23,678 nt of DNA from a virus. Each line of letters starts with the position of its first letter. Positions within the stretch are counted from its first letter, which is position 1. Both the position numbers and the translations under genes were made by a program. Positions 7,552 through 22,670 of the stretch are shown in pieces. Under the pieces are notes generated by a model. The model saw only the letters and a list, made by a program, of their open reading frames with translations, did not search any database and was not told the origin of the DNA. The stretch spans positions 1 through 23,678 of the IMG/VR virus record IMGVR_UViG_3300028559_000194; one strand, given 5' to 3'.

Positions 7552-7559
7552 TATTTACC
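7552..7559 (-). promoter_or_regulatory. Late-promoter-like motif GGTAAATA for the AAA+ gene
   Basis: GGTAAATA ends exactly 5 nt before the ATG at 7546. Together with TGTAAATA at 7563-7570 on the other strand it forms the inverted repeat TATTTAC-N5-GTAAATA (7552-7570), so the two divergent motifs are almost back to back. Confidence 0.5.
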
Positions 7560-7710: not shown

Positions 7711-7729
7711 TTGACATGGTTGTTTTTTT
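7696..7729 (+). terminator. Rho-independent terminator running into a promoter
   Basis: CAACCA (7696-7701) pairs with TGGTTG (7717-7722) over a 15-nt loop and is followed at once by seven T residues (7723-7729). The last T of that run is the first base of the TATAAATA box of the next gene, so terminator and promoter are fused end to end. The stem is short, so strength is uncertain. Confidence 0.4.
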
Positions 7730-7736
7730 ATAAATA
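7729..7736 (+). promoter_or_regulatory. Late promoter TATAAATA
   Basis: A perfect TATAAATA, 9 nt before the ATG at 7746. If it works like the T4 late promoter (box at about -13 to -6), the transcript would start only about 4 nt before the ATG. Confidence 0.6.
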
Positions 7737-7745
7737 ATAACAAAC

Positions 7746-9449
7746 ATGAGAAAAGATTTGCAAAACATACGAGAAAGCTATGAACGTAATGTTTTGAGGG
7801 AAAATGTGGATCGCCTGGATTTTCTAAAAAACAAGTATGTTCCATTATTTTACGCCAAGCTTTTGCACATCTGGCCCGATGAAAGCAACCTTCCCAGCAG
7901 TTACGAAGATTTTAAAAAAGGAACAGAAACCAATTCCAAATACAAAGCTTATTTGGAGTTTCTGAGTGAAACCATTGACAATCTGATAGGAGCAGATCCT
8001 TTCAGCAAAGTAGACATGGAAAAAGGAGCAGGATATGCTGGTCAATACAGTGATTGGATATTAAAAACATTTCTGAAAATATTTGATGAAAAAGGTGAAG
8101 GTGCTGGAAAAACATTAAATGACCTGAAACGATTCATGAACGAGGATCTTTATAAATTGAACAGTGATTTGAAAATTTACGATAAAAACAAAAGCAAGGT
8201 TTCCCTTAACAAAAAAAATGTGCGAGATATCAATCAAGTTCCTGATTTTAAGAACCTTTATTACATCATCAAACAATTTGTACCCAAATATGAGGAGGAA
8301 CTGGTCAAGGACAAAACCAAAGTGCGAATTCTTTTGGACAACAGCCAGTATTTTGTGGGTGTTCCTCTTTCACTTTCTGCCAGTCAAAACCTGGGCAACA
8401 ACACCAGATGGTGCACCGCTGCTCGAAGTGATAACAATACCTACTATGCATCATATACCAAGGACGGTCCTCTTTACATTGTATTCCTTAAAAATAAAGG
8501 AGAGTTGATCAAATATCAATTTCATTTTCCCAGCGGTCAATATATGGATTCAGATGATCACTCTATTGATGTTTTTGATTTTTTCAGCAATCATCCTATC
8601 ATAGGAAAAGTCATATTAGATGATTATGAAAAAACAGATCCAGACGAAAACGATTTGAAAAAGGCAAAATTGTTAACAGGTGGTATTGAAATACTAGACA
8701 AAGAACCAGAAGAATTTTTTCAAAATCTTTCAGTTCAAAACATCATTACCATGATTTCTATTGGACAATTAGATTTGGAAAAAATAAACAAAGGATTAGA
8801 CGTTCTTTCAAAATCTTTTGATAACAAAGCAACATTCACAGCTGACGGATTGCAATTAACAATAATCAAAAATGAAACAGATGAATTTCTGGAAGATTTT
8901 TACAATTATGGAATCAATCGGGTAATTCAGGGGTTTCTTTACAATCCTGTCAGCGTATTTTTTGATGGAAATGAAGATCAGGAAATGGTTCCATTTGTTC
9001 TAAACAATATTTTAAATGCAAAACAAAAACAAAGTATACAACGAGTATTTTCTGATATTGCTGAAAATCCAGAATCATCTGATGAATTTTATAACATTTG
9101 CAGAAATGTTTTGAATAGCCATATCAAAAAAACATCAACACAATATTTGAAAAATGTCGTACTTGATGTTTTTAAAACTCGAGGAATTATTTTTAATAAA
9201 AAAGGAAGAAAAAATGAATTACTCATTCCTTTCGATTCTCTTCTGGACATTTTCAAAGGAGAAAACTCAACGAACTTTCTGAGTTTATTGGAAAATCCTT
9301 CATATTACACAAAACTAGGAGAATTGATACCAGATGTTTCCAATGATCAAATTGAAGATGAAAAGAGTAATTTCATAGATTTTGTTTCACAAAATATTGA
9401 TCGTAAACAAATTGCAGATGATATTATTAAAAAGACAGATAAACGTTAA
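7746..9449 (+). CDS. Unknown phage protein with 'WCTA' domain and capsid-targeting-like N-terminus (567 aa)
   Basis: Residues 1-20 (MRKDLQNIRESYERNVLREN) form a helix ending in L17-R-E19, like other N-termini in this window. Residues ~80-180 hold the segments YAGQYSDWILKTF and VRDINQVPDFK. Residues ~192-290 form a beta-rich domain whose hallmarks are LGNNTRWCTA (~216-225), YYASYTKDGPLYIV and KYQFHFPSGQYMD. The same pattern (DI..F, then G...[WF]C[TI][AS], then Y..Y and [LF]Y[IF]V) recurs in the 355-residue protein at 11492, so I treat it as one domain with an invariant Cys. From memory, similar 'WCTA' proteins occur in several large phages without assigned function. The C-terminal ~270 residues are helical and unrecognised. 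A perfect TATAAATA lies just upstream. Late expression and packaging into the head are inferred, not shown. Confidence 0.82.
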   Translation: MRKDLQNIRESYERNVLRENVDRLDFLKNKYVPLFYAKLLHIWPDESNLPSSYEDFKKGTETNSKYKAYLEFLSETIDNLIGADPFSKVDMEKGAGYAGQYSDWILKTFLKIFDEKGEGAGKTLNDLKRFMNEDLYKLNSDLKIYDKNKSKVSLNKKNVRDINQVPDFKNLYYIIKQFVPKYEEELVKDKTKVRILLDNSQYFVGVPLSLSASQNLGNNTRWCTAARSDNNTYYASYTKDGPLYIVFLKNKGELIKYQFHFPSGQYMDSDDHSIDVFDFFSNHPIIGKVILDDYEKTDPDENDLKKAKLLTGGIEILDKEPEEFFQNLSVQNIITMISIGQLDLEKINKGLDVLSKSFDNKATFTADGLQLTIIKNETDEFLEDFYNYGINRVIQGFLYNPVSVFFDGNEDQEMVPFVLNNILNAKQKQSIQRVFSDIAENPESSDEFYNICRNVLNSHIKKTSTQYLKNVVLDVFKTRGIIFNKKGRKNELLIPFDSLLDIFKGENSTNFLSLLENPSYYTKLGELIPDVSNDQIEDEKSNFIDFVSQNIDRKQIADDIIKKTDKR

Positions 9450-9461
9450 ATAATATATAAT

Positions 9462-9674
9462 ATGAAAATATTAAATGATCTGTTAAATGTGATTGAAGCG
9501 GTTCGTTGGACGGTAGTTTGGAAGATCGAAGATCTTAAAAACACAGTTCATAATTTGTTTCCTTCAAAGGATGTTGAAGATCCTTTTGTTGGAGAATCTT
9601 ATATTGAAAATAAACCTTCTAAAAAAACCGTTAAAAAATCAACAAAAAAGAAAACCAAAAAAAGTAAGAAATAA
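9462..9674 (+). CDS. Small protein with Lys-rich tail (70 aa), unknown
   Basis: The first ~30 residues (MKILNDLLNVIEAVRWTVVW) look like an amphipathic helix. The middle is short and acidic (DVEDPFVGESY), and the last ~20 residues are almost all Lys/Thr/Ser (KKTVKKSTKKKTKKSKK). Such a tail suggests binding to nucleic acid or to an acidic surface. The gene starts 12 nt after the 567-residue gene. Its stop overlaps the Nudix start by one base (TAATG), so it is translated with that gene. No family is recognised. The arrangement supports a real gene, and the function is unknown. Confidence 0.65.
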   Translation: MKILNDLLNVIEAVRWTVVWKIEDLKNTVHNLFPSKDVEDPFVGESYIENKPSKKTVKKSTKKKTKKSKK

Positions 9675-10117
9675 TGAAATTTCCGAGTTTTTCGGAAGTT
9701 GTTAAAATTGCAAAACGGCGAAGTGCCGGAGGAATTCTTTTTGATAAAAACAAAAACATAATTCTTGTGCAAGAACGGGATGGTTCTTGGAGTTTTCCTA
9801 AAGGAGGCATAGAAGATGGTGAATCTCCGTTGAGTGCAGCTGTGCGAGAGATAAGAGAGGAAACAGGCATACGTTCACTATATCCCATCCGATCTTTGGG
9901 ACAATATTTTCGACCCACACGCAAAGGTAAAAAACGAATGGTGTTTATGTATTTGTTCAAGGTAGACAATCAAAAACTTCAACCTTTGGATCGAAACAAT
10001 CCTCGGGCTGAATTTTTTGCTTTTAATAAAGCCATAAACAAATTGGATATTCCAAGTGACAGTGCTTTTTTGAAAACATGTGAAATTGTTATAGATAATT
10101 ATTTAAAAAATAATTAA
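9674..10117 (+). CDS. Nudix hydrolase (147 aa)
   Basis: The Nudix box G-x5-E-x7-RE-[LIV]-x-EE-x-G-[LIV] is complete at residues 44-66: G44, E50, R58-E59, E62-E63, G65-I66. These residues bind the divalent metals that drive hydrolysis of a nucleoside diphosphate linked to another group. The lead-in WSFPKGG resembles diadenosine- or diphosphoinositol-polyphosphate hydrolases and RNA pyrophosphohydrolases more than MutT, but the substrate cannot be fixed from this. Length is typical for a single-domain enzyme. T4 and relatives encode a Nudix enzyme (NudE), so a role in clearing signalling or damaged nucleotides, or in mRNA turnover, is plausible. It overlaps the preceding small gene by one base. 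Confidence 0.93.
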   Translation: MKFPSFSEVVKIAKRRSAGGILFDKNKNIILVQERDGSWSFPKGGIEDGESPLSAAVREIREETGIRSLYPIRSLGQYFRPTRKGKKRMVFMYLFKVDNQKLQPLDRNNPRAEFFAFNKAINKLDIPSDSAFLKTCEIVIDNYLKNN

Positions 10118-10153
10118 ATCTTGATTTTATTTTTCTTTATATAAAATACTCTG

Positions 10154-10435
10154 ATGAAAATATTAGAGAAAAATTTTGAGCGTAAAAAATTTGAATATGA
10201 TCAAATTTACCGAAAAGTTAATTTAGCAATTTATAAACAAAAAAATATAGAATATGGAAGCTTGACATATGAGGTGATTACGATAAAATCACACAATGGT
10301 TATGAAATCATGGGAAACAAAATTCCACCTTCTGAAGTATATCCTTGCGACAGTCAATGGGGCGATTTAGCTTGGACATACCAAACATTAGAAGAAGCAC
10401 AAAACAAAATAAAACAACTGGAGGAAACAAAATGA
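10154..10435 (+). CDS. Conserved-looking small protein (93 aa), unknown
   Basis: The start is Lys-rich and helical (MKILEKNFERKKFEYDQIYR). The core reads YEVITIKSHNGYEIMG, then PPSEVYPCDSQWGDLAWTYQ, followed by an EEAQNKIKQLEE helix. The beta-strand, 'PPxExYP..xxWG...WTY' and terminal helix layout is one I associate, from memory, with small hypothetical proteins of marine phages, with no known function. Upstream is TATAAAAT (10140-10147), an imperfect late-promoter-like element 6 nt before the ATG. Its last codons overlap the start of the next gene. Confidence 0.75.
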   Translation: MKILEKNFERKKFEYDQIYRKVNLAIYKQKNIEYGSLTYEVITIKSHNGYEIMGNKIPPSEVYPCDSQWGDLAWTYQTLEEAQNKIKQLEETK

Positions 10436-10644
10436 AAGTAGGAAAAATTAAAAAAATAACAATGTATAAGGTTGATCTTGAAAATATCACACCTGAAGAA
10501 CAAAAAACCATTACTGATTATGGTCGCAGTGTGATAACAGAAAATCAATATTTTGAAATTGGTACAGTAAAAGCATTAGAAAATTTTGTTAATATTAATA
10601 AAACCACCTCTAAGAAAAAGAACCGTACTAAACGCATAAACTAG
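10432..10644 (+). CDS. Small basic protein (70 aa), unknown
   Basis: The reading frame is open from 10345, but I choose the ATG at 10432. It overlaps the previous stop as ATGA and is preceded by GGAGGA about 7 nt upstream, one of the few strong Shine-Dalgarno sites here. The product begins MKVGKIKKITMYKVDLENIT and ends in a basic tail (KKKNRTKRIN). No family is recognised. It is the last gene before the strong terminator at 10669-10705. Confidence 0.65.
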   Translation: MKVGKIKKITMYKVDLENITPEEQKTITDYGRSVITENQYFEIGTVKALENFVNINKTTSKKKNRTKRIN

Positions 10645-10668
10645 TATCTGTAATAGTTCATATATAAA

Positions 10669-10705
10669 AAAATACCCAGATGGTTTTTTGCCATCTGGGT
10701 ATTTT
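10669..10705. terminator. Strong bidirectional terminator between convergent genes
   Basis: A perfect 15-bp inverted repeat (AAAATACCCAGATGG at 10669-10683 with CCATCTGGGTATTTT at 10691-10705) with a 7-nt loop. It gives T-rich tails on both strands. It sits between the plus gene ending at 10644 and the minus gene ending at 10720 and should stop transcription both ways. It is the strongest hairpin in the window. Confidence 0.93.
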
Positions 10706-10719
10706 CTTTTAGAATGATA

Positions 10720-11019
10720 TTACTGTTTGAAATCGCCTAGATCTCGGTGAAATGTGTATTCACCTGGCTTGGCAACCAGAACATCATAACCAGCATCGAT
10801 TTCATCAGCCATTGCCAGAAACGGTGATGCAACTGCAAAAAGACCAAAACCAGCAATGGTTCCGGCAGCGCCAATAGGACGCACAACCAAAATATCGGCT
10901 GTGGCCAAGAAAGCGCTTTCTGCTGTCACTTCATCCGAATCGGTGGTTGTGCCTGTGTCTGCATAAGACAAGGTGGCTGCTAGCATCAATACCGATACGA
11001 GGGTGATTAGTTTATTCAT
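10720..11019 (-). CDS. Small exported protein with signal peptide, cellular type (99 aa)
   Basis: I start at ATG 11019, since MNKLITLVSVLMLAATLSYA is a textbook Sec signal peptide (basic start, hydrophobic core, A-x-A-like cleavage after SYA). A TTG five codons upstream would spoil it. The mature part has a short acidic linker, then ILVVRPIGAAGTIAGFGLFA and SPFLAMADEID, a hydrophobic hairpin-like region, and ends YDVLVAKPGEYTFHRDLGDF. The pattern 'D.lvvRP.g..at..G..lFv...Pf ... lv..P..YTF.RpLG.f' resembles small periplasmic or inner-membrane proteins of Gram-negative bacteria. It is noticeably richer in G+C than its neighbours, which suggests recent acquisition from a host. The terminator at 10669-10705 follows it. 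Its role in infection is unknown. Confidence 0.75.
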   Translation of the reverse strand: MNKLITLVSVLMLAATLSYADTGTTTDSDEVTAESAFLATADILVVRPIGAAGTIAGFGLFAVASPFLAMADEIDAGYDVLVAKPGEYTFHRDLGDFKQ

Positions 11020-11047
11020 GTATATAATTACCAAACCAACCTCTTTA

Positions 11048-11425
11048 TCAACTGTATTTTTTAATAACTTTACGAGCTTCTTTTTCGTTGATTCCGCTCA
11101 TATGACTCATTATTTTATTAAAAGTTTTTACATTCTTTAAATAACGCTTGGCTTGACTAAGTTTATATTTTTCAAAACTATCCATTTTCCTATTTTGTTT
11201 TGACAATAAATCAGGAGCTTTTTCTGTTTTGGTTTCTTCTTCTTCATCTGCAAGCTTTCCATCACCACCAGTGGCTTTATCTATGGCTTTTCCTCGAGCT
11301 TTTTCGTAATCACTCAGTTTTCCGTCTTTGTTTAAATCAGATTTTTTTACATCAATAGCATCTTCGTCAGTGGCTTTAACCATCTTATATTTTTCTAAAA
11401 TAAGATCAATTTCGTTATTCAACAT
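11048..11425 (-). CDS. EF-hand-like calcium-binding protein with capsid-targeting-like start (125 aa)
   Basis: Residues ~30-41 read DLNKDGKLSDYE, a full EF-hand loop: Asp1, Asn3, Asp5, Gly6, hydrophobic 8, Ser9 and Glu12. The helix after it, KARGKAIDKA, is present. A second stretch (GGDGKLADEEEE) resembles a degenerate loop. The C-terminal ~45 residues are basic and helical (KYKLSQAKRYLKN, then EARKVIKKYS). The N-terminus MLNNEIDLILEKY ends a short helix in I9-L-E11, the pattern found in several proteins here. A perfect TATAAATA lies 5 nt before the ATG, so late expression is likely. EF-hand loops of this kind occur in structural proteins of marine phages. Calcium binding is likely; the role is unknown. 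Confidence 0.82.
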   Translation of the reverse strand: MLNNEIDLILEKYKMVKATDEDAIDVKKSDLNKDGKLSDYEKARGKAIDKATGGDGKLADEEEETKTEKAPDLLSKQNRKMDSFEKYKLSQAKRYLKNVKTFNKIMSHMSGINEKEARKVIKKYS

Positions 11426-11430
11426 AATAT

Positions 11431-11438
11431 TATTTATA
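11431..11438 (-). promoter_or_regulatory. Late promoter TATAAATA (minus)
   Basis: A perfect TATAAATA that ends 5 nt before the ATG at 11425. It faces away from the equally perfect box at 11479-11486 on the other strand, making a divergent late-promoter pair within 60 nt. Confidence 0.6.
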
Positions 11439-11478
11439 AAACAAGGGTTTCTATTGTTGATTTATGATATTATTATTA

Positions 11479-11486
11479 TATAAATA
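11479..11486 (+). promoter_or_regulatory. Late promoter TATAAATA (plus)
   Basis: A perfect TATAAATA that ends 5 nt before the ATG at 11492. With T4-like geometry, transcription would start at or next to the ATG itself. Confidence 0.6.
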
Positions 11487-11491
11487 GTTTT

Positions 11492-12559
11492 ATGCCTTTT
11501 AATCGGGATCAGCATATTATTTTTGAAAAATATCTTACTCTGACAGAGAAGGTTTCGTTAGATGGTATTCTTAATCTTTTGCAGAATAAAAATGAAAAGA
11601 TAGCAGCCAAACTTCTTGAAATGGACAAAACAACAAGCAAAGGACATGTTCTTAAATTGGCAAAATTCTTTAATGAAGTACAAAATCTGGATGTCTTATC
11701 CGAATATTATAAAAAGTTTTTGGAACTGAAAAAGCGTAATCGTATACAAGACATCACTGGTTTCAAATCATTCAATGAAATGGAAAATGCAATCGATGCA
11801 ATGGAAACAAAAGTTAACCTTTCCATGCCTGAAGAAGTTGGTGATGCTGAGAAACCACTTTACGAGGATGAAAATATAAAAGTTTTTGAAGGAGAGAATC
11901 GTGCCAAATGTGTAAAACTAGGAAGCAATTATAAATTTTGCATCAGTCGCCCAGATCGCGGAAATGCTTATTCCAATTATCGTTTAAGAGATCAATCCAG
12001 TTTTTATTTTGTTCGTTTGAAAAAACGCACTGATGAAATGAAAAATGGTGAGTATGTGGATCCTGCACATTTGATGGTTATTGATGCTTTACCTAGAGGT
12101 GAATATAACTGGACATGGGCAGATAATGGTTGGCAGGGACATGGAACAACCAGAGTTACCAAAGAACAGGCAATCAAAGAATTTCCAGAATTGAAACCTG
12201 CTTTTGACAAAATTATAACTGCAAAACCTTTGACACGGGATGAAAAAAGCAAAATTGAAAAGTTCAATGAATTGGCTAGTGACTTTGATGTAAAAATTTT
12301 TAACAGTTTAAAATATTCTGAAAAAGAAGAATTTATTCAACAAGGTGGTGTTGAACTTACTTTTGATGCATGGAAAACTCTTGATAAAAATCTTCGTAAT
12401 GAATATTTGAAAAATATTGAAAATTTTGATCGTGAAATATTTGAAGATCTTAAACCAAACGAAAAAGTTGTGTTTGAAAAACAAATTCAAAAAAGTGCCG
12501 AAGCCGAATTCAATTATTTTCTTTATTTAGATAAATTAATCGAAAAAGATGAACGATGA
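11492..12559 (+). CDS. Unknown protein with 'FCIS' domain related to the 567-residue protein (355 aa)
   Basis: The N-terminal helix MPFNRDQHIIFEKYLTLTEK ends in L17-T-E19, the same position as in three other proteins here. Residues ~85-245 hold IQDITGFKSFNEME, then LGSNYKFCIS (~143-152), YSNYRLRDQSSFYFVRLKK, and NWTWADNGWQGHGTTR. This parallels the DI..F / G..TRWCTA / YYASY / LYIVFLK order of the protein at 7746, with Trp-Cys-Thr replaced by Phe-Cys-Ile. I therefore read it as a diverged copy of the same domain. The last ~110 residues are charged helices. A perfect TATAAATA precedes the start. The gene overlaps the next by 11 nt, so it is translated with the 29-residue-repeat protein. Biochemical function is unknown. 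Confidence 0.8.
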   Translation: MPFNRDQHIIFEKYLTLTEKVSLDGILNLLQNKNEKIAAKLLEMDKTTSKGHVLKLAKFFNEVQNLDVLSEYYKKFLELKKRNRIQDITGFKSFNEMENAIDAMETKVNLSMPEEVGDAEKPLYEDENIKVFEGENRAKCVKLGSNYKFCISRPDRGNAYSNYRLRDQSSFYFVRLKKRTDEMKNGEYVDPAHLMVIDALPRGEYNWTWADNGWQGHGTTRVTKEQAIKEFPELKPAFDKIITAKPLTRDEKSKIEKFNELASDFDVKIFNSLKYSEKEEFIQQGGVELTFDAWKTLDKNLRNEYLKNIENFDREIFEDLKPNEKVVFEKQIQKSAEAEFNYFLYLDKLIEKDER

Positions 12560-13685
12560 TATACAACAAAAACAACAGGATCTGGTTGTTAACATAGCAA
12601 AAGATCCTTATGTGGCCATGCGTTTTGCTCGACACATGCGTTCTCAAGAAAAACCCATTCCGGATATTATTCTGAAATCAATTATAAACGAACCTTTGGC
12701 AGGATCTAATTTTGCTTTGGAATTGGCACGTGATTATATTTTATTGAATGATCCTGTGCCTGAAATATTATTGGATAGAATTATAACCAATTCTAAAAAT
12801 TCATATTATATTGCAAAATATTATAAAAAAAATAATCAACAAATACCTGACAAGGTTTTAAAAAGCGTACAAAATTCACCATTTGCAAGATTATCATTTG
12901 ATGAAGACGAAGAACAATCAAACGAACCTGCTATCAAGCAAGAATTGCGAAAAAAAATTTTAGCGGATCCAAAGTATGCTCTTCGATACGCAAAGGTTTT
13001 AGTTCAAAACGGTAGACCTGTTCCTGACAGTGTGGAAGATTCGTTCACAGATTCTCCCGAATCTGCTAATGAATATGCAAAAACAATAATATCTAATAAT
13101 GGTGAAGTTTCACAAAAAATATTTGATATCATTGAAAAAGATAATTATCAAAGTTTTGATTTTGCTAATAGTATACTTCAACCAAAAGTTGGATATGGTC
13201 CGTCTAATGCAGCAAAAATTGCTCCATTACAAATAATAAAATCACTTGCAAAATATTCGGGTAATGCAACAGCATATGCAACAGAGTATTTAAAACAAGT
13301 TGATAAATATGATAAAACAATTTTAGACGTGCTAGAAAATGGAATTAAAAAAGGAGTAACAGTTAGTTTTAAAGGTGATGAAGATAAAGACATATCTGAA
13401 AATGTTTCAAAATATGTTATGGCATATGTGGATTCTGTTGGGGAATTACCATCTAAAGAAATGCTTAAATTGACTAAAGCTAAAAGTCTTGTTTATATTA
13501 GTAACATTCTTTGGTCTCAAAATAAAGAAATTCCACAGGAAATTATTGATACAATTGCTAAAAATGGCAGTGCATCATATGCATTTGTTGCTCGATATAA
13601 AATGTTAAAAGGTGGAAAAACGCTTCCTAGCATTTATAAAAAAATTGAAAATAGTGCCAGAAATTACAACGAAAATACTATTTAA
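12549..13685 (+). CDS. 29-residue helical-repeat protein A (378 aa)
   Basis: Built largely from repeats whose usual length is 29 residues. Clear units are at ~17-45, 46-78, 79-107, 138-166 and 167-195, with looser ones to the end. The consensus is x-x-[DNS]-P-x-x-A-x-x-[YF]-A-x-x-[LIM], a short loop, then [IV]-P-[DE]-x-[IL]-[LI]-x-x-I. Two helices per unit are expected, making an alpha-solenoid as in TPR- or HEAT-like scaffolds. Units ~108-137 and ~280-320 carry acidic insertions. The same repeat makes up the proteins at 17959 and 18702, so this is a local gene family. The ATG overlaps the preceding gene by 11 nt. I do not recognise a named family. Protein binding is a fair guess from the architecture only. 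Confidence 0.8.
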   Translation: MNDDIQQKQQDLVVNIAKDPYVAMRFARHMRSQEKPIPDIILKSIINEPLAGSNFALELARDYILLNDPVPEILLDRIITNSKNSYYIAKYYKKNNQQIPDKVLKSVQNSPFARLSFDEDEEQSNEPAIKQELRKKILADPKYALRYAKVLVQNGRPVPDSVEDSFTDSPESANEYAKTIISNNGEVSQKIFDIIEKDNYQSFDFANSILQPKVGYGPSNAAKIAPLQIIKSLAKYSGNATAYATEYLKQVDKYDKTILDVLENGIKKGVTVSFKGDEDKDISENVSKYVMAYVDSVGELPSKEMLKLTKAKSLVYISNILWSQNKEIPQEIIDTIAKNGSASYAFVARYKMLKGGKTLPSIYKKIENSARNYNENTI

Positions 13686-13757
13686 AATAAATTGATTTTT
13701 TTTAACACCCTGTAAAATAAAGGTTGTGGTAATACTATCTTTGGAAATAATGTAAAA

Positions 13758-13946
13758 ATGAATGTTTTAAAAGAATCAGAAACTGAATACAAGCAATTTA
13801 TACAAAAATACAGCAACGCTTTTAGTGCCACGATTCAAGATGTGGATCGGGATGCTAAAGCCAATATCAAATCAAATATTTGTTTGAATAAAATATATGA
13901 TCTTTTTTTGGATTTTATAATTGATTCAAAAAGACTACTAAAATAA
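13758..13946 (+). CDS. Small helical protein (62 aa), unknown
   Basis: The product starts MNVLKESETEYKQFIQKYSN and ends KIYDLFLDFIIDSKRLLK. It is entirely helix-forming and lacks the [LI]-x-E end of the other N-termini. The gene lies 72 nt after the repeat protein, with only a weak AT-rich motif upstream. It converges on nrdB, with 9 nt between the stop codons. The match to local codon use supports it; no function can be given. Confidence 0.55.
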   Translation: MNVLKESETEYKQFIQKYSNAFSATIQDVDRDAKANIKSNICLNKIYDLFLDFIIDSKRLLK

Positions 13947-13963
13947 CTTTATATATTAAAGTT
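13945..13963. terminator. AT-rich hairpin across the stops of convergent genes
   Basis: AACTTTA (13945-13951) pairs with TAAAGTT (13957-13963) over a TATAT loop. It overlaps both the TAA of the 62-residue gene and the stop of nrdB. The 15-mer ACTTTATATATTAAA recurs at 22949-22963, again in a convergent gap. No G-C pairs beyond one, so termination strength is doubtful. Confidence 0.3.
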
Positions 13964-15020: not shown

Positions 15021-15027
15021 GTAATTT

Positions 15028-15035
15028 TATTTATA
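15028..15035 (-). promoter_or_regulatory. TATAAATA between nrdA and nrdB
   Basis: A perfect TATAAATA, 7 nt before the nrdB ATG, inside the 24-nt gap after nrdA. It is unexpected because reductase genes are normally expressed before late genes. It could be chance in AT-rich DNA, or could give late beta-subunit synthesis. Confidence 0.4.
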
Positions 15036-15044
15036 CCAGCAGGA

Positions 15045-17318: not shown

Positions 17319-17449
17319 TTAGTTGTACCATACAATTCGTCAAATCATATTTTTTTTCTTTTGATTTGAAATAATTTTTCGATACATTTTTATTTAGAGT
17401 TGAGGACGTAAAAATTTTTTTTCTGTTATGAAAAAAGTAAATACAAATG

Positions 17450-17477
17450 TTGACACACCATCAACAACATATAGAAT
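17450..17477 (+). promoter_or_regulatory. Sigma-70-like promoter
   Basis: A perfect -35 TTGACA (17450-17455) is followed after 16 nt by TAGAAT (17472-17477). The ATG at 17484 is only 6 nt further, leaving almost no leader. The gap between nrdA and this gene (17319-17483) otherwise holds only AT-rich sequence and a 17-codon frame that I do not accept. Confidence 0.4.
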
Positions 17478-17483
17478 ATAATA

Positions 17484-17687
17484 ATGACAGTTAAAAAATT
17501 AAAAGAAATTTTAAATAACCATCATGAGGATTTACACGTGTTTATACGTGGTTATGAAGGTGGATATGCAGATGTTAAAAATATAATCAATGCAAAAATA
17601 AAAAAGAATGTGAATAAAGAATGGTGGTATGGACCTCATGAAATAAATAATAAAAACTACGATAAGGAAGGAATTATATTGGAATGA
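17484..17687 (+). CDS. Small protein (67 aa), unknown
   Basis: Begins MTVKKLKEILNNHHEDLHVF, followed by IRGYEGGYADV and WWYGPHEIN. A 'vkxLxexLnxxhpdxxVxixgyegGyadv' pattern is common in small hypothetical proteins of phages and bacteria, and likely forms a compact alpha/beta unit with a Gly-rich turn. The stop overlaps the next ATG by 4 nt (ATGA), starting a chain of coupled small genes. It may be served by the sigma-70-like promoter just upstream. Confidence 0.72.
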   Translation: MTVKKLKEILNNHHEDLHVFIRGYEGGYADVKNIINAKIKKNVNKEWWYGPHEINNKNYDKEGIILE

Positions 17688-17857
17688 AATACATAGAACA
17701 AATCAAAGACGAATATGGAAATCTTATGCAGTTGTGGGGCATATATGAAAAAACCGAATATGAGCTTTTTGAAGAAGGAAACCATATTACCAAAAGGAGA
17801 TTGTTAAGAACGTTTGAATCATTGACAGCAGCAAATCATTTTTTGAAAAAAACATGA
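17684..17857 (+). CDS. Small protein (57 aa), unknown
   Basis: Read by hand between 4-nt ATGA overlaps on both sides. The product starts MKYIEQIKDEYGNLMQLWGI and continues YEKTEYELFEEGNHITKRRL, ending ESLTAANHFLKKT. The alternation suggests a small beta-hairpin followed by a helix. No family is recognised. The tight overlaps are strong evidence that it is translated. Confidence 0.65.
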   Translation: MKYIEQIKDEYGNLMQLWGIYEKTEYELFEEGNHITKRRLLRTFESLTAANHFLKKT

Positions 17858-17943
17858 GTCCAAAATTGTTTGAATATTTTATTGTAATATTGGGTGTTAT
17901 TGCAAATATTGTGCTGATTGTTAATGCTCTGCATCATTGGTAA
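17854..17943 (+). CDS. Tiny membrane peptide (29 aa)
   Basis: The ATG overlaps the previous stop (ATGA). The product MSPKLFEYFIVILGVIANIV plus LIVNALHHW is essentially one transmembrane helix with short ends. Tiny membrane proteins next to other small genes are common in phages and may act on the host envelope or on superinfection, but nothing here decides this. It could also be a chance frame, though the exact coupling argues against that. Confidence 0.5.
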   Translation: MSPKLFEYFIVILGVIANIVLIVNALHHW

Positions 17944-17945
17944 AT

Positions 17946-17953
17946 TGTAAATA
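17946..17953 (+). promoter_or_regulatory. Late-promoter-like motif TGTAAATA
   Basis: TGTAAATA ends 5 nt before the GTG at 17959, the same octamer and gap as at 7563-7570. Confidence 0.5.
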
Positions 17954-17958
17954 ATTAG

Positions 17959-18705
17959 GTGACATTCGCTTTTTACAAGAAACTGTTGTTGGGTGAGGAA
18001 AGCAGCTTTCAACAGCAGTATATGGCTAAACTGTTGGAACCAGGAGAAGACAGCCGAAATCGTCGTTTGATTTATGCAACAAAGCTGGCGTTGCGAAATC
18101 GTGCCATACCAGAACCAATTCAAAACATTATATTATCCACCCCCTTTGAAAGCATGGTTCTTGCTTATAATTTGAAAATAAGCAATATACAACCCGAAGA
18201 AAAATATCTAAGAGTTTTGGCCAATCAACCAATCAAAGCTGCTCAATATGCTAGACTATTGTCAGATAAAGGAGAAAACGTACCTGAATTTATTTTGCAA
18301 AGCATAAGCAACGATCCACAAGAATCAGAACGTTTTGCAAGCCATCTTATGATGAGCAATGTAAGCCAGTATCATCGAAATGTGGATGGAAAAGAGGTGA
18401 GCATACGCAGGGTCAAAGAATTGCCTGTTCCCCTAATCATATTAAAAGGAATAGCAGGAGATCCAGAAGTTGCACATGGATACATGTATTATATTATAAA
18501 ATATACCGATAAAAAAGTTCCAGAAATATTGATAAAAGGATTATCAACTCGGCCTGATTTGGCAATTGATTTGGAACAAAATTATCGCAATTTAAATAAG
18601 AGTGCACCCTCTAGTTTGCATGAAATTATCAGCACCAGCAAGCAGTTGCAAAATGCAGTTGCAAACCGCAAGAAAAAGGGAAGAAAGGGCAATGCATTTT
18701 TGTGA
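17959..18705 (+). CDS. 29-residue helical-repeat protein B, GTG start (248 aa)
   Basis: GTG is chosen because TGTAAATA lies 5 nt before it. The N-terminus MTFAFYKKLLLGEES has L11-G-E13, like other packaged-type leaders here. From ~41 on it is made of the repeat described for the protein at 12549; the clearest unit is 88-116 (ANQPIKAAQYARLL, then NVPEFILQSI), with others at ~60-87, 117-165 and 166-195. The unit at 117-165 has a ~20-residue insertion rich in charge (NVDGKEVSIRRVKELPVP). A very similar insertion (NFDTGEETSRFKFP) occurs in the next protein, suggesting a shared beta-hairpin side feature. Its stop overlaps the next start as GTGA. The C-terminus is basic (NRKKKGRKGNAFL). Function is unknown. 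Confidence 0.8.
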   Translation: MTFAFYKKLLLGEESSFQQQYMAKLLEPGEDSRNRRLIYATKLALRNRAIPEPIQNIILSTPFESMVLAYNLKISNIQPEEKYLRVLANQPIKAAQYARLLSDKGENVPEFILQSISNDPQESERFASHLMMSNVSQYHRNVDGKEVSIRRVKELPVPLIILKGIAGDPEVAHGYMYYIIKYTDKKVPEILIKGLSTRPDLAIDLEQNYRNLNKSAPSSLHEIISTSKQLQNAVANRKKKGRKGNAFL

Positions 18706-19478
18706 AAACCTATCGTTTTTTTCTGGAGGATATAAAACAAGATTTATACGATAAAATAAAAAAAAATCCTTATTATGCAAGTAAACTTATTGAAAAGCTC
18801 AGATTAAACAAAAGAGAAATACCTGATGAATTATTAAATTTGTTCTTGCATAATCCAGAGTATCTGGATAACATTTTACGAAATATGATTGCTGATTCTG
18901 ATTGGAACACACTAAACAATCCCATTATTAAAAAAATATTAGAACAGCATGCAGTTTTATCTTTTGATTTGTTTGAATTATTATATGATTATCACATAGA
19001 AAAATTAGAACAATTGTTTAATAATAAAAATCCGTTTTTATATGCATTATACAAAGGCATAAGCAAAGATTCTGTATTATCTAAAAAATTAATGTTAAAA
19101 TATGCAGGAAAAATGATTAAGGTTAATTTTGACACAGGAGAAGAAACATCAAGGTTTAAATTTCCCATCATCATATTAAATTCAATAAATGATGAAATGG
19201 CAACCGCATATGAATTTGCACAAATTCTTTTGGACAGGGACAAGAAAGTTCCAGAATCCACAATGAAAAAACTTGCAACAAGTGTTGTTTACAGCATTCA
19301 AATTGCATTATATTATAATAAAGAAAGAAACAGAAACGTGCCAGAAATAATTTTAAAAACAATTGCGGATCATAAAAGGGGCACTCTCACATATTACCAA
19401 TATTTGATAGAAAGAAATCTACCAGTTCCAAAAATTATAATTGATGCATTGGACAAATGGGGCGGTCCTGGTATTTAA
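18702..19478 (+). CDS. 29-residue helical-repeat protein C, GTG start (258 aa)
   Basis: Starts at GTG within a GTGA overlap with the previous gene. The first residues, MKTYRFFLED, closely resemble the T4 internal-protein leader (MKTYQEFIAE, from memory) and end F7-L-E9. Clear 29- or 30-residue repeats are at 20-48 (KKNPYYASKLIEKL, then REIPDELLNLF), 163-191, 192-221 and 222-250 (RNLPVPKIIIDAL). The middle (~50-160) is more diverged and includes the NFDTGEETSRFKFP insertion shared with its neighbour. With proteins A and B it forms a three-member family. Tandem placement of B and C points to local duplication followed by strong divergence. Function is unknown. Confidence 0.8.
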   Translation: MKTYRFFLEDIKQDLYDKIKKNPYYASKLIEKLRLNKREIPDELLNLFLHNPEYLDNILRNMIADSDWNTLNNPIIKKILEQHAVLSFDLFELLYDYHIEKLEQLFNNKNPFLYALYKGISKDSVLSKKLMLKYAGKMIKVNFDTGEETSRFKFPIIILNSINDEMATAYEFAQILLDRDKKVPESTMKKLATSVVYSIQIALYYNKERNRNVPEIILKTIADHKRGTLTYYQYLIERNLPVPKIIIDALDKWGGPGI

Positions 19479-19493
19479 ACAATCATATATGGT

Positions 19494-19640
19494 ATGAAAA
19501 AATGGATCAATGTTGTTATCAAAACTTTTGTAAACGATTGCAGCATTGGTTTAACACTAATAGTATTGGGCTTTATTGCGGGAGTATGTTACATAAACTT
19601 GTTTCATTTTTTACAAAATATTTTCATGAGCATAAAGTGA
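19494..19640 (+). CDS. Small single-span membrane protein (48 aa)
   Basis: Read by hand: MKKWINVVIKTFVNDCSIGL, then TLIVLGFIAGVCYINLFHFL. It has a basic N-terminus and one hydrophobic helix at ~19-36. It lies 15 nt after the repeat protein and overlaps the next gene by 4 nt (GTGA). I prefer this gene plus 19637-19897 over a single 146-codon frame from 19457, whose first part is Cys/Trp-rich and overlaps the upstream gene. Confidence 0.6.
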   Translation: MKKWINVVIKTFVNDCSIGLTLIVLGFIAGVCYINLFHFLQNIFMSIK

Positions 19641-19897
19641 AACAAGGTCCAAATAGCCTGGAAGAATTGTTGAATCAATTTGATCTGCCATCCAAACAAA
19701 AAACACCACAACAAAACATTCAGCATCATATAATATTACAAAAAATGATAAAACTGGAAGGAGAATATCAACATGGCCTGCCCGAAGAGTTTTATCAAGG
19801 AGTGTATATTGTGGAATATGCAAACAAAGTGAAAATAGTATCCATACCCTGCATGATACGTCCAGGCACGTTATATGATTGTTTTAGCCGTAATTAA
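19637..19897 (+). CDS. Small protein, GTG start (86 aa), unknown
   Basis: Starts at the GTG of a GTGA overlap with the membrane-peptide gene. The product is MKQGPNSLEELLNQFDLPSK, a Gln-rich helix (QQNIQHHIILQKMIKLEGEY), then a beta-rich end: LPEEFYQGVYIVEYANKVKI, then VSIPCMIRPGTLYDC. No family is recognised. The frame is open further upstream, but the coupled start fits the pattern of this gene chain. Confidence 0.6.
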   Translation: MKQGPNSLEELLNQFDLPSKQKTPQQNIQHHIILQKMIKLEGEYQHGLPEEFYQGVYIVEYANKVKIVSIPCMIRPGTLYDCFSRN

Positions 19898-19916
19898 AAA
19901 AATATAGAATATTTTT
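19898..19916 (+). terminator. Weak AT-only hairpin after the small-gene chain
   Basis: AAAAATAT (19898-19905) pairs with ATATTTTT (19909-19916) around an AGA loop, right after the stop at 19897 and with a terminal T-run. With no G-C pairs it would be weak. It separates the chain from the HNH genes, which have a TATAAT box at 19925-19930. Confidence 0.3.
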
Positions 19917-19939
19917 GCGCAAGGTATAATATAAGAAAA

Positions 19940-20515
19940 ATGAAAGCGTTGCAAAAAAGGTTCTGTGTGCAGGATCTGAAAAATTTGTTCCGGGCAGATT
20001 ACCAGAATGGCATAATATATTGCAAAAAAACAGGCAGGGCCATATTAAACAAGCCTAACAAAGATGGTTATTTGCGGGTAGGAATAAAAAATAAACAGAA
20101 TGGTCGATACAAACCTTATTATATTCATGATGTGATTTTTTACATGAAATACCATTGGCTGCCTGAAGAAATGGATCATGTTAATCACGTTAAAAATGAT
20201 AACCGGGATGTTAATCTGCAACCCAGCAATCACAATCTGCAACAAGTAAACATGCCTAAAAAAAATGGAAAAAGCAGCAGATACAAAGGAGTATGTTATT
20301 ATGCCTGTAAAAAAAGCAAAAAATGGCGGGCCAGTCTTCAACACAGGGGAAAACATCTGAGTCTTGGACATTATGAGAATGAACAGGATGCAGCAAAGGC
20401 ATATGACAAATCAGCTTATGCCCTATGGGGAGAATATAGTCGACCCCATCTTAATTTTCCAAACCTTATAAACAATAATATGGTGCAACAATTATTGAAT
20501 CTGGAACTTGCTTAA
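19940..20515 (+). CDS. HNH endonuclease with AP2 DNA-binding domain, copy 1 (191 aa)
   Basis: Free-standing homing-type endonuclease. Residues ~20-60 hold the usual lead-in (GIIYCKKTGRA, then KDGYLRVGI). The HNH site runs ~62-95: YIHDVIFYMKY (H63), MDHVNHVKNDNRDVNLQ (D79-H80, N92). An AP2/ERF-type DNA-binding domain is at ~113-173 (SRYKGVCYY, KWRASLQHRGKHLSLGHYE, AAKAYDKSAY, LNFP). Such genes spread by cutting DNA near their own site. D79 is followed by HVNH, where canonical copies have HING, a small change near the active site. A TATAAT box (19925-19930) is just upstream, unlike the TAAATA motifs of its neighbours. No interrupted host gene is seen next to it. Confidence 0.93.
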   Translation: MKALQKRFCVQDLKNLFRADYQNGIIYCKKTGRAILNKPNKDGYLRVGIKNKQNGRYKPYYIHDVIFYMKYHWLPEEMDHVNHVKNDNRDVNLQPSNHNLQQVNMPKKNGKSSRYKGVCYYACKKSKKWRASLQHRGKHLSLGHYENEQDAAKAYDKSAYALWGEYSRPHLNFPNLINNNMVQQLLNLELA

Positions 20516-20525
20516 TATAACAATT

Positions 20526-21110
20526 ATGAAAAGAGCAATAGAAAAAGCATGGAAGAACAGGGAGGATATGTTAAAAGATATACGGCCTGATCCTGAAACC
20601 GGAATTGTATACAGCAGAAGAACAGGCAAAAGTATAGGGGTACTTCATATAGATGGTTATGTACGCATTAGTAAACGTGCAAATGGAAAACATTACAACA
20701 TAAAAAGAAGCCATGTCATATGGTGGAGCAAGTACCAAAAAATGCCCCCTGTAAAAATGTGTATTGATCATATTGATGGGGACAAAACAAATGATAGAAT
20801 AGAAAATTTGCAAATTCTTAGCAATCAACAAAATATTGCAAAAAAAAAGAAAAACACAAAAGCATTTTCAAAATACAGGGGAGTTAGATTTAGAAAAGAT
20901 AGGAAAAAATTTGAAGCTCGGGTAAGAAAATGGGGAAAAGAATATAATTTTGGAGGTTACGAGGATGCGAAAGAAGCGGCGGTTGCCCGGGATAGAGGCG
21001 TGATAAAATTATATGAAAAAGAAATGAAGGAGACAGGCTTTTTACCGCCTCTTAACTTTCCAGAGATTTTACAAAATAATAAAGAACTTGTGCAACTGGA
21101 ATTGTTTTAA
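20526..21110 (+). CDS. HNH endonuclease with AP2 DNA-binding domain, copy 2 (194 aa)
   Basis: I start at ATG 20526, since the TTG at 20508 would overlap the first HNH gene for no gain. The layout matches copy 1: lead-in DPETGIVYSRRTGK, then HIDGYVRIS; the HNH site with H63 (RSHVIWW) and the canonical IDHIDGDKTNDRIENLQILS (D81-H82, N94); and an AP2 domain at ~115-178 (SKYRGVRFRK, KKFEARVRKWGKEYNFGGYE, AAVARDRG, LNFP). The catalytic motif is closer to consensus than in copy 1. The two are homologous but well diverged, so they are either an old tandem duplication or separate insertions. It is probably an active nicking or cutting enzyme. Confidence 0.94.
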   Translation: MKRAIEKAWKNREDMLKDIRPDPETGIVYSRRTGKSIGVLHIDGYVRISKRANGKHYNIKRSHVIWWSKYQKMPPVKMCIDHIDGDKTNDRIENLQILSNQQNIAKKKKNTKAFSKYRGVRFRKDRKKFEARVRKWGKEYNFGGYEDAKEAAVARDRGVIKLYEKEMKETGFLPPLNFPEILQNNKELVQLELF

Positions 21111-21143
21111 AATGAAACACAACAATATAAGTGCATAAAAACG

Positions 21144-21151
21144 TATAAATA
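21144..21151 (+). promoter_or_regulatory. Late promoter TATAAATA
   Basis: A perfect TATAAATA in the gap after the second HNH gene. It is 28 nt before the preferred ATG at 21180 (13 nt before an alternative ATG at 21165), allowing a short leader, unlike most other boxes here. Confidence 0.6.
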
Positions 21152-21179
21152 ACAACAGCGTAAAATGCTTTGTGCTGTT

Positions 21180-21425
21180 ATGAAAACATATAATCAATTT
21201 ATTTTGGAAAAAAAGAAACGAAGAAAAAGAAAGAAAAAAACCAAAAGTAAAAGAAGCAGTTTTCAGCAATTTCCAGTATCCACAGGCAGAGGGAGTGGAT
21301 ATGGGGGTGGATATGGTTACGGGTACGGTCCCGGTTATTACGCAACAACAGATGCAGGCATGTCAGATGGAGCAGCAGGAGGGGATGCAGGTGGCGGTGG
21401 AGATGGTGGAGGTGGGGGAGAATAA
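21180..21425 (+). CDS. Lys-rich/Gly-rich protein with T4-internal-protein-like leader (81 aa)
   Basis: The ATG at 21180 is chosen over 21165 because it gives MKTYNQFILE, which differs from the T4 internal-protein leader (MKTYQEFIAE, from memory) at four of ten residues and keeps I8-x-E10, the prohead-protease cleavage pattern. What follows is a highly basic block (KKKRRKRKKKTKSKRSS, ~11-27), then a Gly/Tyr block (GSGYGGGYGYGYGPGYY, ~40-56), then an acidic Gly/Asp tail. After cleavage this would leave a small basic disordered protein suited to lie with DNA in the head, as T4 internal proteins do. Apart from the leader there is no homology visible to a named family. TATAAATA upstream fits late expression. 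Confidence 0.75.
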   Translation: MKTYNQFILEKKKRRKRKKKTKSKRSSFQQFPVSTGRGSGYGGGYGYGYGPGYYATTDAGMSDGAAGGDAGGGGDGGGGGE

Positions 21426-21439
21426 TAAAAAAGTATAAG

Positions 21440-21447
21440 CATAAATA
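21440..21447 (+). promoter_or_regulatory. Late-promoter-like motif CATAAATA
   Basis: CATAAATA ends exactly 5 nt before the ATG at 21453, matching the late box at 7 of 8 positions. Confidence 0.5.
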
Positions 21448-21452
21448 GTATT

Positions 21453-21590
21453 ATGGCTATTAATAAGATTAATGAGCTTTATTATCAAAGTCGAAAGATT
21501 TTGAAAGAAAATAGGAATGATGAATTAACACATGAGGATGCCGAAGAAACAACCAAGCAGGATCTGGCTGATTTAAACGAGAAAAATTAA
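21453..21590 (+). CDS. Very small acidic protein with shared leader (45 aa)
   Basis: Read by hand. The leader MAINKINELYYQSRKILKEN is very like that of the protein at 22239 (MDIDKINQLYYTNRKLLQEQ), both with L17-x-E19. The remainder is only ~25 residues, acidic and probably disordered (RNDELTHEDAEETTKQDLAD). It therefore looks like a targeting peptide with almost no cargo: either a remnant of a larger gene like 22239 or a genuine short scaffold-type protein. Its stop overlaps the stop of the opposite-strand gene at 21587 in the shared tetramer TTAA. CATAAATA lies 5 nt before the ATG. Confidence 0.7.
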   Translation: MAINKINELYYQSRKILKENRNDELTHEDAEETTKQDLADLNEKN

Positions 21591-22141
21591 ACTTCAGGAT
21601 TTTTATCCTGCACAAACTGACTGAAGGTTCCTAGTTTTTTTAATTTTCTTTGCCTTTCGTGTTCTAATCTTTTTCTTCTGTATTCTGGATCATTGGCATA
21701 TTTTTGCTTTTCGTGTTCTAATTTTTTTCTTCTATATTCTGGATCATTGTCATATTTTTGCTTGCTTTGTTCTAACCTTTTTCTTCTGTATTCTGGATCA
21801 TTGGCATATTTTTGCCTTTCGTGTTCTAATCTTTTTCTTCTGTATTCTGGAGCACTGACATATAACTTAGTATATAATTTTTCAAATGCTTTTTGCATAC
21901 CATTTTTTTTGAAATAAAGAAGCGCCTCAATTTGATCATCTGTCGCATGTGGGAACATTATTTTGAGTTTGGTAGTATATTTGCCGTGATAATCCACATA
22001 AGTTTCACTGGAAAAAGGAGAACTTCCACTTTTTTCACCCTCGGTTGTTTCTGGATCTTTTTGCAAATTACTTACAAAATCCTCTCCACCCAGAGGATTT
22101 GAACGCAATGTCATGTTTTCCCATAAAACCTGAAACTTCAC
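21587..22141 (-). CDS. Tandem-repeat coiled-coil protein, GTG start (184 aa)
   Basis: GTG 22141 is preferred over the ATG at 22114, because ATTAAATA ends 5 nt before it and it gives the leader MKFQVLWEN with L6-W-E8. Residues ~10-60 are polar (LRSNPLGGEDFVSNL, then SSPFSSETYVDYHGKYTT). Residues ~62-95 form a helical unit (PHATDDQIEALLYFKKNG). Residues ~97-168 are four 18-residue repeats of [AD]PEYRRKRLEHERQKYAN, almost all charged, likely a long single helix or coiled coil able to bind nucleic acid. The C-terminus contains GTFSQFVQDK, which itself looks like a targeting leader at the wrong end. Similar 'PEYRxKxxE' repeats occur in phage and bacterial proteins of unknown role. Confidence 0.78.
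   Translation of the reverse strand: MKFQVLWENMTLRSNPLGGEDFVSNLQKDPETTEGEKSGSSPFSSETYVDYHGKYTTKLKIMFPHATDDQIEALLYFKKNGMQKAFEKLYTKLYVSAPEYRRKRLEHERQKYANDPEYRRKRLEQSKQKYDNDPEYRRKKLEHEKQKYANDPEYRRKRLEHERQRKLKKLGTFSQFVQDKNPEV
21638..21853 (-). repeat. Four tandem 54-bp coding repeats
   Basis: The TATTCT of each copy falls at 21681, 21735, 21789 and 21843, exactly 54 bp apart. Each copy encodes 18 residues (PEYRRKRLEHERQKYAN type), so copy-number change keeps the frame. The copies differ by only a few bases, suggesting recent expansion. Confidence 0.92.
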
Positions 22142-22146
22142 TAATG

Positions 22147-22154
22147 TATTTAAT
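22147..22154 (-). promoter_or_regulatory. Late-promoter-like motif ATTAAATA
   Basis: ATTAAATA ends 5 nt before the GTG at 22141. It is a weak match to TATAAATA but keeps TAAATA and the spacing seen elsewhere. Confidence 0.35.
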
Positions 22155-22236
22155 AATAAAAAATGTTGATTTGTAATTTATTTTTGGGTAAATAATAAAA
22201 AATGTTGATTTGTAATTTATTTTTGGGTAAATAATA
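22152..22236 (+). repeat. 39-bp tandem repeat carrying a late-promoter-like motif
   Basis: Two identical 39-bp copies (22152-22190 and 22191-22229) plus the first 7 bases of a third (22230-22236). Each copy ends GGGTA and runs into AATAATA, so both junctions read GGTAAATAATA. The second junction lies just before the gene at 22239; the first is the same sequence 39 bp upstream. The repeat fills most of the divergent intergenic gap. Confidence 0.93.
22226..22233 (+). promoter_or_regulatory. Late-promoter-like motif GGTAAATA, second of two
   Basis: GGTAAATA ends 5 nt before the ATG at 22239. An identical octamer 39 bp upstream (22187-22194) comes from the tandem duplication, so this gene may have two start sites. 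Confidence 0.5.
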
Positions 22237-22238
22237 CT

Positions 22239-22670
22239 ATGGATATTGACAAGATTAACCAGCTTTATTATACTAATAGAAAACTTTTACAAGAGCAAAG
22301 TGAAGAGGGTGAAAGAGTATTTTATGCGTCTGTGCCTCTGGAATTGGAACATTACAACAAACCAGAAAAATATGATTCCAGTTTACGAGAATATCCATCA
22401 TTAGGAAAAATTAATGTTTCATATAAAATATATTTTGATTTTGTAAAAAATGGTCTTCGTAGCATCAGTGTGTATGATGTGGAAGTGAAACCTTTTACAA
22501 TATATGATGATATTGATGATATGAAAACAATAAATGTGGATTTCGGAGGAAAAGAAATAGAGTCAGAAGTTCCAGATAAAATAACTTTGCCATTAATACC
22601 TTATGTTTTCAGATTGGTATTGGACGACGGAACAACACCAATTGCGGAAAAATCCACACTTATATTTTAA
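22239..22670 (+). CDS. Unknown beta-rich protein with shared leader (143 aa)
   Basis: The leader MDIDKINQLYYTNRKLLQEQ ends in L17-Q-E19, like three other proteins in the window. The rest is mixed beta: VFYASVPLELEHYNKP, SLGKINVSYKIYFDFVKNGL, SISVYDVEVKPF, then LPLIPYVFRLVLDDGTTPIA. Alternating hydrophobics suggest a compact beta-sandwich. No family is recognised. It follows two copies of a promoter-like repeat, and its leader matches the 45-residue protein at 21453, so the two genes may share an origin, with the smaller having lost its body. Confidence 0.78.
   Translation: MDIDKINQLYYTNRKLLQEQSEEGERVFYASVPLELEHYNKPEKYDSSLREYPSLGKINVSYKIYFDFVKNGLRSISVYDVEVKPFTIYDDIDDMKTINVDFGGKEIESEVPDKITLPLIPYVFRLVLDDGTTPIAEKSTLIF

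Follow-up and report, generated by a model that had tools for sequence, protein, structure and literature searches.

The window considered here is the whole of the IMG/VR virus record IMGVR_UViG_3300028559_000194, 23,678 bases from an uncultured T4-like phage. Nine of its genes encode proteins that start with a short leader containing [LIF]-x-E, a resemblance to the capsid-targeting peptides of T4 that was pointed out in a preliminary description of this DNA. Every N-terminus reads as quoted there, at the following positions.

21180..21209, + strand: type A leader MKTYNQFILE of g21180 (gene 21180-21425), with Y4, F7, I8 and E10 as in T4 IPIII
18702..18731, + strand: type A leader MKTYRFFLED of g18702 (gene 18702-19478, GTG start), with Y4, F7 and D10
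11492..11548, + strand: type B leader of g11492 (gene 11492-12559), with IFE12 and LTE19
11393..11425, - strand: type B leader MLNNEIDLILE of g11048m (gene 11048-11425)
7746..7802, + strand: leader with IRE10 and LRE19 of g7746 (gene 7746-9449), weakly type B
21453..21509, + strand: type C leader MAINKINELYYQSRKILKE of g21453 (gene 21453-21590), common to g22239
22239..22295, + strand: type C leader MDIDKINQLYYTNRKLLQE of g22239 (gene 22239-22670), common to g21453
17959..17997, + strand: unplaced leader MTFAFYKKLLLGE of g17959 (gene 17959-18705, GTG start)
22118..22141, - strand: unplaced leader MKFQVLWE of g21587m (gene 21587-22141, GTG start)

We see three leader types in this set, namely A (T4-like, MKTYxxF), B (MxxDxxLIFEAY) and C, plus two open cases, g17959 and g21587m. 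Judging from sequence, we lean towards the view that g21180, g18702, g11492, g11048m, probably g7746, g21453 and g22239 are late proteins bearing a T4-like capsid-targeting leader at the N-terminus. Roughly seven of the nine proposed tags look genuine; g17959 and g21587m are only possible members of the leader set. Comparisons were made with close relatives of the window, which are G002 (L007/L002; g7746 85% identical), G004 (L008; g7746 70% identical), G003, G001 and L006, and with other related phages such as G037 and G032. The window and G001-G004 are all fragments; G003 additionally encodes the terminase large subunit, the tail tube and a head-closure protein. Gene starts were called with a simple gene caller that is bound to misplace some of them; in G004, genes are clearly missed or misplaced.

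The type A leaders link the window with T4. In the ten-residue T4 leader, residues 4 and 7 chiefly govern targeting and residues 8 and 10 processing, and an aspartate at position 10 blocks processing while targeting is retained (PMC9026906, in part). All four tested residues (Y4, F7, I8, E10) are present in g21180, which is the best single member of the set. In g18702 they are Y4, F7 and D10, and the leader reads VKTYRFFIED in L006/L007. The targeting pair Y4 and F7 is present in these two leaders and missing from the other seven. The g21180 product is very basic, with a tail rich in glycine, and its leader has weak PHROG matches (phrog_3966, residues 1-25, E 0.009; phrog_8765, an internal virion protein, residues 1-33, E 0.07); a second in-frame ATG lies five codons upstream (21165), closer to the promoter box described below. 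No relatives of g18702 were found by pattern search, and none of the 2,550 N-termini used for comparison has the pattern MKTY..F. When IMG/VR was scanned for ATG-anchored leaders of the T4 type, at least 80 loci were listed, giving at least 86 non-redundant sites, 84 of them open for at least 50 codons; the bodies behind it fall into at least 48 families among the matches listed.

What the window has in common with T4 IPI, IPII and IPIII is thus a short leader on diverse cargo, the MKTYxxF form with its residues 4 and 7, and [LI]-x-E. The leader lengths of T4, 10 residues in IPII and IPIII and 19 in IPI, are also matched. IPI has 95 residues and its mature form 76 (PMC3012670, in part); therefore 19 residues are removed, ending in I17-T-E19. 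This cut end resembles the L17-x-E19 that the preliminary description had assigned to four window genes and that is indeed present in g7746, g11492, g21453 and g22239. The differences are that all four tested residues occur only in g21180, that other residues follow the E, that the window bodies are not T4 internal proteins and that the protease is not on this fragment.

Type B leaders connect the window with other phages. The N-terminus of g11492 finds its best match in G037 (MNKDSHLIFEAY; MNKDSHLIFEAYKTVV; score 49, z 6.2) in a protein with a dissimilar body, and its IFEKY and TLTEK are conserved in L007/L008. The N-terminus of g11048m matches that of G037_168563 (MNRDIKLLFEAY; z 3.1) and the leader is kept in L007/L008, while the body is related to G032_214766, itself the bearer of a type B leader. 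In g7746, E19 is kept in L007/L008 and E10 is replaced by D in L008. The type B motif is N-terminal in 12 proteins (11 in G037 and G032, one in the window's lineage), whereas its frequency at other positions predicts 1.04, and its strict form is found seven times at N-termini and never elsewhere. A count of 12 separate type B families, obtained with a half-length coverage criterion, proved too high, as any local similarity outside the leader reduces them to seven groups. An unanchored scan of IMG/VR for LIFEAY gives at least 74 non-redundant sites, near-identical proteins from different contigs included, of which 53 have at least 40 codons downstream. Among the matches listed, a start codon lies within ten codons upstream in 44 of these 53 open sites, and 33 (counted by hand) have an ATG 6-9 codons upstream, 5-10 nucleotides (nt) after TAAATA. 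The literature search, with most subscription papers outside its scope, returned no paper using LIFEAY or MKTYQEF as words.

Some proteins of this group carry other recognizable stretches. The DLNKDGKLSDYE stretch of g11048m (11296-11350, - strand), EF-hand or dockerin-like by eye with a weak Pfam match, is common to G032_214766 and Roseobacter phage CRP-3. The leader-bearing proteins G037_8086, G037_215683 and G032_196850, otherwise different, have in common the module KCWKGYHKxGTKxKxGxRVNNCVK, which is about 37-41 residues long and recurs with 78% identity.

Type C is the leader of about 20 residues that g21453 and g22239 have in common (score 62; among shuffles of the window N-termini, a pair scoring at least 44 has P 0.003). 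The bodies of the two proteins do not match each other, and among all window N-terminal pairs theirs alone stands out, most being no better than shuffles. Exchange of leaders is also seen in homologues of g7746. Its body is homologous from residue 66 to gp279 of PA5oct, annotated as a structural protein detected by electrospray-ionization tandem mass spectrometry (ESI-MS/MS), and the leaders differ, that of gp279 starting MKLFEVFTLYE. The homologue in Salicola phage SCTP-2 has an internal Met 36 codons past the annotated start, followed by KVKHITQYLFESY, and that of CcrBL9 is neither type A nor type B, with I-x-E at E20. A distant homologue of g11492 in W01 (LR756511.1, a 595-kb phage record) starts MEFREWFRSAE. 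Residues 207-275 of g7746 (8364-8570) form an NTRWCTAA domain common to PA5oct, SCTP-2, CcrBL9 and other Pseudomonas phages.

Boxes of the T4 late-promoter type precede most leader genes.

7729..7736, + strand: TATAAATA box, 9 nt before g7746
11431..11438, - strand: TATAAATA box, 5 nt before g11048m
11479..11486, + strand: TATAAATA box, 5 nt before g11492
17946..17953, + strand: TGTAAATA box, 5 nt before g17959
21144..21151, + strand: TATAAATA box, 28 nt before ATG 21180 and 13 nt before ATG 21165
21440..21447, + strand: CATAAATA box, 5 nt before g21453
22147..22154, - strand: ATTAAATA box, 5 nt before g21587m
22226..22233, + strand: GGTAAATA box, 5 nt before g22239
7552-7559, - strand: T4-type late-promoter box ending 5 nt before a start codon

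TAAATA lies within 30 nt upstream of eight of the nine leader genes and of five of the 19 others (one-sided P 0.003), g18702 being the sole leader gene without a late box; with gaps of 3-12 nt only, the counts are 7/9 and 5/19 (P 0.015). Late expression of the leader genes is what these boxes predict. The association extends to type A and B leaders elsewhere, in G037 (box before 11/16 against 42/199; P 1e-4), in G032 (6/10 against 44/179; P 0.02) and in W01 (4/30 against 17/622; P 0.01). The loose tripeptide motif is likewise associated with the box in G037 (P 0.04) and G032 (P 0.003), and not clearly so in W01 (P 0.10).

Several results weigh against a head-targeting role for these leaders. 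Seven of the nine have no significant N-terminal match in G037 or G032 (p 0.18 for g7746, whose best outside match is thus not significant, and 0.28-0.80 for the six others). The K form proper to the window, IIFEKY[L/F], was searched as a codon-restricted pattern; just 3 of its 23 open sites are N-terminal, and the idea that it is a general signature of N-termini was discarded. In 1,822 related proteins (from G037, G032 and 78 further loci retrieved through NrdA similarity), N-termini show no enrichment of the tripeptide, with 239 occurrences within the first ten residues for 259 expected. In PA5oct, it is not commoner among proteins detected by mass spectrometry (17/91) than among the others (44/178), with genes from our own simple caller and 91 of 93 mass-spectrometry entries matched; the motif alone therefore predicts nothing, and was abandoned as a predictor of virion proteins. 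No gp21-type protease (PF03420) was found on the window or on G001-G004, all of them fragments. Finally, A, G or S follows the E at none of the nine window sites, compared with 43 of the 71 distinct T4-type leaders among the IMG/VR matches listed (P 5e-4; a comparison chosen after looking). Adding the second site of g7746, E10-S11, gives 1/10 (P 0.004). The preference is a tendency and no strict rule, 28 of the 71 T4-type leaders being without it.

A rather unlikely alternative is that the resemblance arises mostly by chance, L, I, K and E being common in an A+T-rich phage, N-termini being often short helices, and a wide-range motif being present in a third of the genes. L/I-x-E occurs in eight of the nine leaders (g21180, g11048m, g11492, g7746, g17959, g21453, g22239 and g21587m), and the g18702 site reads F-L-E-D, or I-E-D in relatives. 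The assertion that enzymes with known jobs lack the motif does not hold at the stringency that admits 22141, since the Nudix protein starts MKFPSFSE, with F-x-E at E8, the very position accepted for MKFQVLWE; g17484 also carries L-x-E at E8. Among the 28 curated genes of the window, [LIF]-x-E with its E at positions 9-20 is found in eight, whereas shuffled N-termini give 5.2 (P 0.13) and internal stretches 3.7 (P 0.009). The range 7-20, which contains all nine, gives 11 genes for 6.0 in shuffles (P 0.018) and 4.1 in internal stretches (P 0.0005), and the range 5-20 gives 13 for 6.8 in shuffles (P 0.003). An E exactly at 19 is seen in four genes for 0.46 in shuffles (P 0.001), at a position picked after looking. 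The loose motif is modestly enriched in the window and uninformative in general. A single motif common to all nine is unsupported, whether by the chance counts, the 1,822-protein set or the N-terminal pair scores. The signal is carried by longer leaders in a subset. The P value for the range 7-20, the T4 determinants in two genes, the significant matches of g11492 and g11048m with leaders of other phages, the g21453/g22239 pair and the association with late boxes all argue against chance. Chance is likely the right reading for g21587m and possibly for g17959.

That the leaders are docking peptides, which would attach to the scaffold or to some other component of the virion and stay uncut, their final E being no protease site, is unlikely as well. 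This idea is favoured by the D10 of g18702 in both lineages seen, the D in place of E10 in g7746 of L008 and the lack of A, G or S after the E. Given this lack, either the protease of the lineage differs or the leaders stay uncut, and trimming after [L/I]-x-E as originally proposed is unsupported at present, with D10 in g18702 and no protease on the fragment. Docking alone fits less well with the conservation of E19 in g7746 and of E12 and E19 in g11492 in relatives, and with the company that type A and B leaders keep. PF03420 is present in G032, G033, G037, PA5oct, SCTP-2, Paride and LR756511, was not found in CcrBL9, and occurs in three of the 34 NrdA-related records searched. In the protease-bearing records counted (G037, G032, W01 and the G033 stretch L072), type A is found in 10 and type B in 13 of 1,164 proteins, against 0 of 1,360 each at other loci (P 4e-4 and 4e-5), many of which are fragments of phages whose protease may lie elsewhere. 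L006-L008 (26 proteins), set apart from this comparison, have type B in one protein and type A in none. In this sample, type B is confined to records with a gp21-type protease and to the window's own lineage. LR756511.1 has two PF03420 matches (242621-242989 and 526118-526534), and its N-termini include MKTFAEWIVE and MKNFRVWLEE. The head propeptides of SPN3US and phiKZ, cut by gp245 / gp175, are similarly N-terminal and cut after E; they differ in having another motif and, in SPN3US, in being mostly 111-254 residues long, two of those of SPN3US being short, at 20 and 24 residues (PMC10052503, in part).

The distance between box and start codon has an interest of its own. It is exactly 5 nt in seven window genes (g6413m, g11048m, g11492, g17959, g21453, g21587m and g22239). 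Among box-start pairs, the gap measures 4-6 nt in 71/101 for G037, 58/93 in G032, 8/11 in G002, 9/20 in G003, 11/20 in G004 and 36/108 in W01; such gaps are scarce in the T4 stretches read (4/39) and in PA5oct (3/89). When the 40 hexamers most frequent at 4-6 nt upstream of open starts are compared, TAAATA is the most over-represented in G037 (18.5-fold), G032 (16.3-fold) and G004 (10.4-fold); in the window it reaches 11.6-fold with rarer hexamers ranking higher, and in W01 Shine-Dalgarno hexamers are on top, all these counts including nested starts. A Shine-Dalgarno-like stretch accompanies only 2 of 49 genes with a box near the start in G037 and 1 of 47 in G032, against 29/130 and 14/121 of those without. 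We take the T4 late box to occupy -13 to -6, which at a 5-nt gap would make the A of the ATG the +1 position. In T4, about one turn of the helix separates the box from the transcription start downstream of it (PMC2988020, in part). Boxes that so frequently end 5 nt upstream of the start codon, in genes mostly devoid of a Shine-Dalgarno stretch, suggest that late mRNAs are leaderless in this phage and its relatives; the box may have a role in translation. The box is identical to the one that gp55 recognizes in T4 late promoters (TATAAATA), and gp55 relatives are found in G037, G032, G033 and PA5oct, and were not found in W01 or G002-G004. The difference from T4 and PA5oct lies in the clustering at 5 nt. 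Within the same scope, the literature search returned no paper treating the T4 late promoter or TATAAATA together with leaderless mRNA. It is very improbable that the leaders are merely a nucleotide-level feature of translation starts on such mRNAs with no protein signal, despite the close boxes and the rarity of Shine-Dalgarno stretches, because in 11 LIFEAY leaders codons differ at residues that stay fixed, many box genes (42 in G037, 44 in G032) have no type A or B leader, and 49 of the 84 type A genes among the matches listed have no box within 60 nt.

Under the capsid-targeting reading, the leader would bind the prohead core during head assembly and so bring its cargo inside, and it would be cut off where the following site suits the prohead protease of this phage. 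In g18702, the leader would probably be retained because of D10, which in T4 blocks trimming yet permits targeting. The cargo would then sit with the DNA and, by analogy with T4, may enter the host; core binding, packaging, trimming and injection are all steps that we infer. The proposal that these proteins are sent into the prohead is partly supported by seven leader-like N-termini, the T4 match in two, the recurrence of such leaders on different bodies in related phages and in protease-bearing records, late boxes before eight of nine genes and the mass-spectrometry annotation of gp279, and does not extend to all nine.

The nine proteins are not all unrelated as was first claimed, since g17959 and g18702 have bodies related to each other (E 0.001). 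Both are also related to the leaderless g12549 (E 5e-6 and 3e-5, respectively), and g18702 overlaps the end of g17959. The three genes (12549-13685, 17959-18705 and 18702-19478) encode related helical-repeat-like proteins with no leader, an unplaced leader and a T4-type leader, respectively. GTG start codons are used by three leader genes (17959, 18702 and 22141). The gene caller favours a downstream ATG for g21587m (22114) and g17959 (18022), and either choice removes the leader; the GTG start, leader and upstream box of g17959 are all kept in L006/L007. The g21587m product (21587-22141, - strand) contains repeats of about EYRRKRLEHERQKYANDP. Several genes in this lineage share a tail-fibre-like start, MALKNFTQFTPQT (window 3275-6376, - strand; G002 19344; G003 3971; G004 48938). 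Searches for relatives of g22239, g17959 and g12549 in the phage collection returned no match, and a PDB sequence search gave nothing below E 0.07. Structures predicted from three-sequence alignments are poor (mean pLDDT, the predicted local distance difference test, 57 for g11492 and 61 for g7746); in both, confidence is among the lowest over the first 20 residues, which proves little. By eye, g7746 and g11492 seem to have related W/F-C domains, a kinship that profile comparison does not support (probability 0.5, E 0.12).

Taken jointly, these data lead us to propose, tentatively, that T4-like environmental phages use a second widespread head-loading tag, MxxDxxLIFEAY, besides MKTYxxF, present in a version proper to each lineage on many late proteins of different bodies, and that in G037, G032 and probably the window's phage, late mRNAs start at the start codon or within 1-2 bases of it. 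Such leaders mark proteins delivered with phage DNA, as exemplified by T4 IPI, which shields phage DNA from a host restriction enzyme (PMC3012670, in part). A recognizable second tag would allow candidate delivered proteins to be listed in uncultured phages, even when their bodies match nothing known, and the spacing between box and start codon yields a plain, testable prediction on late mRNAs.

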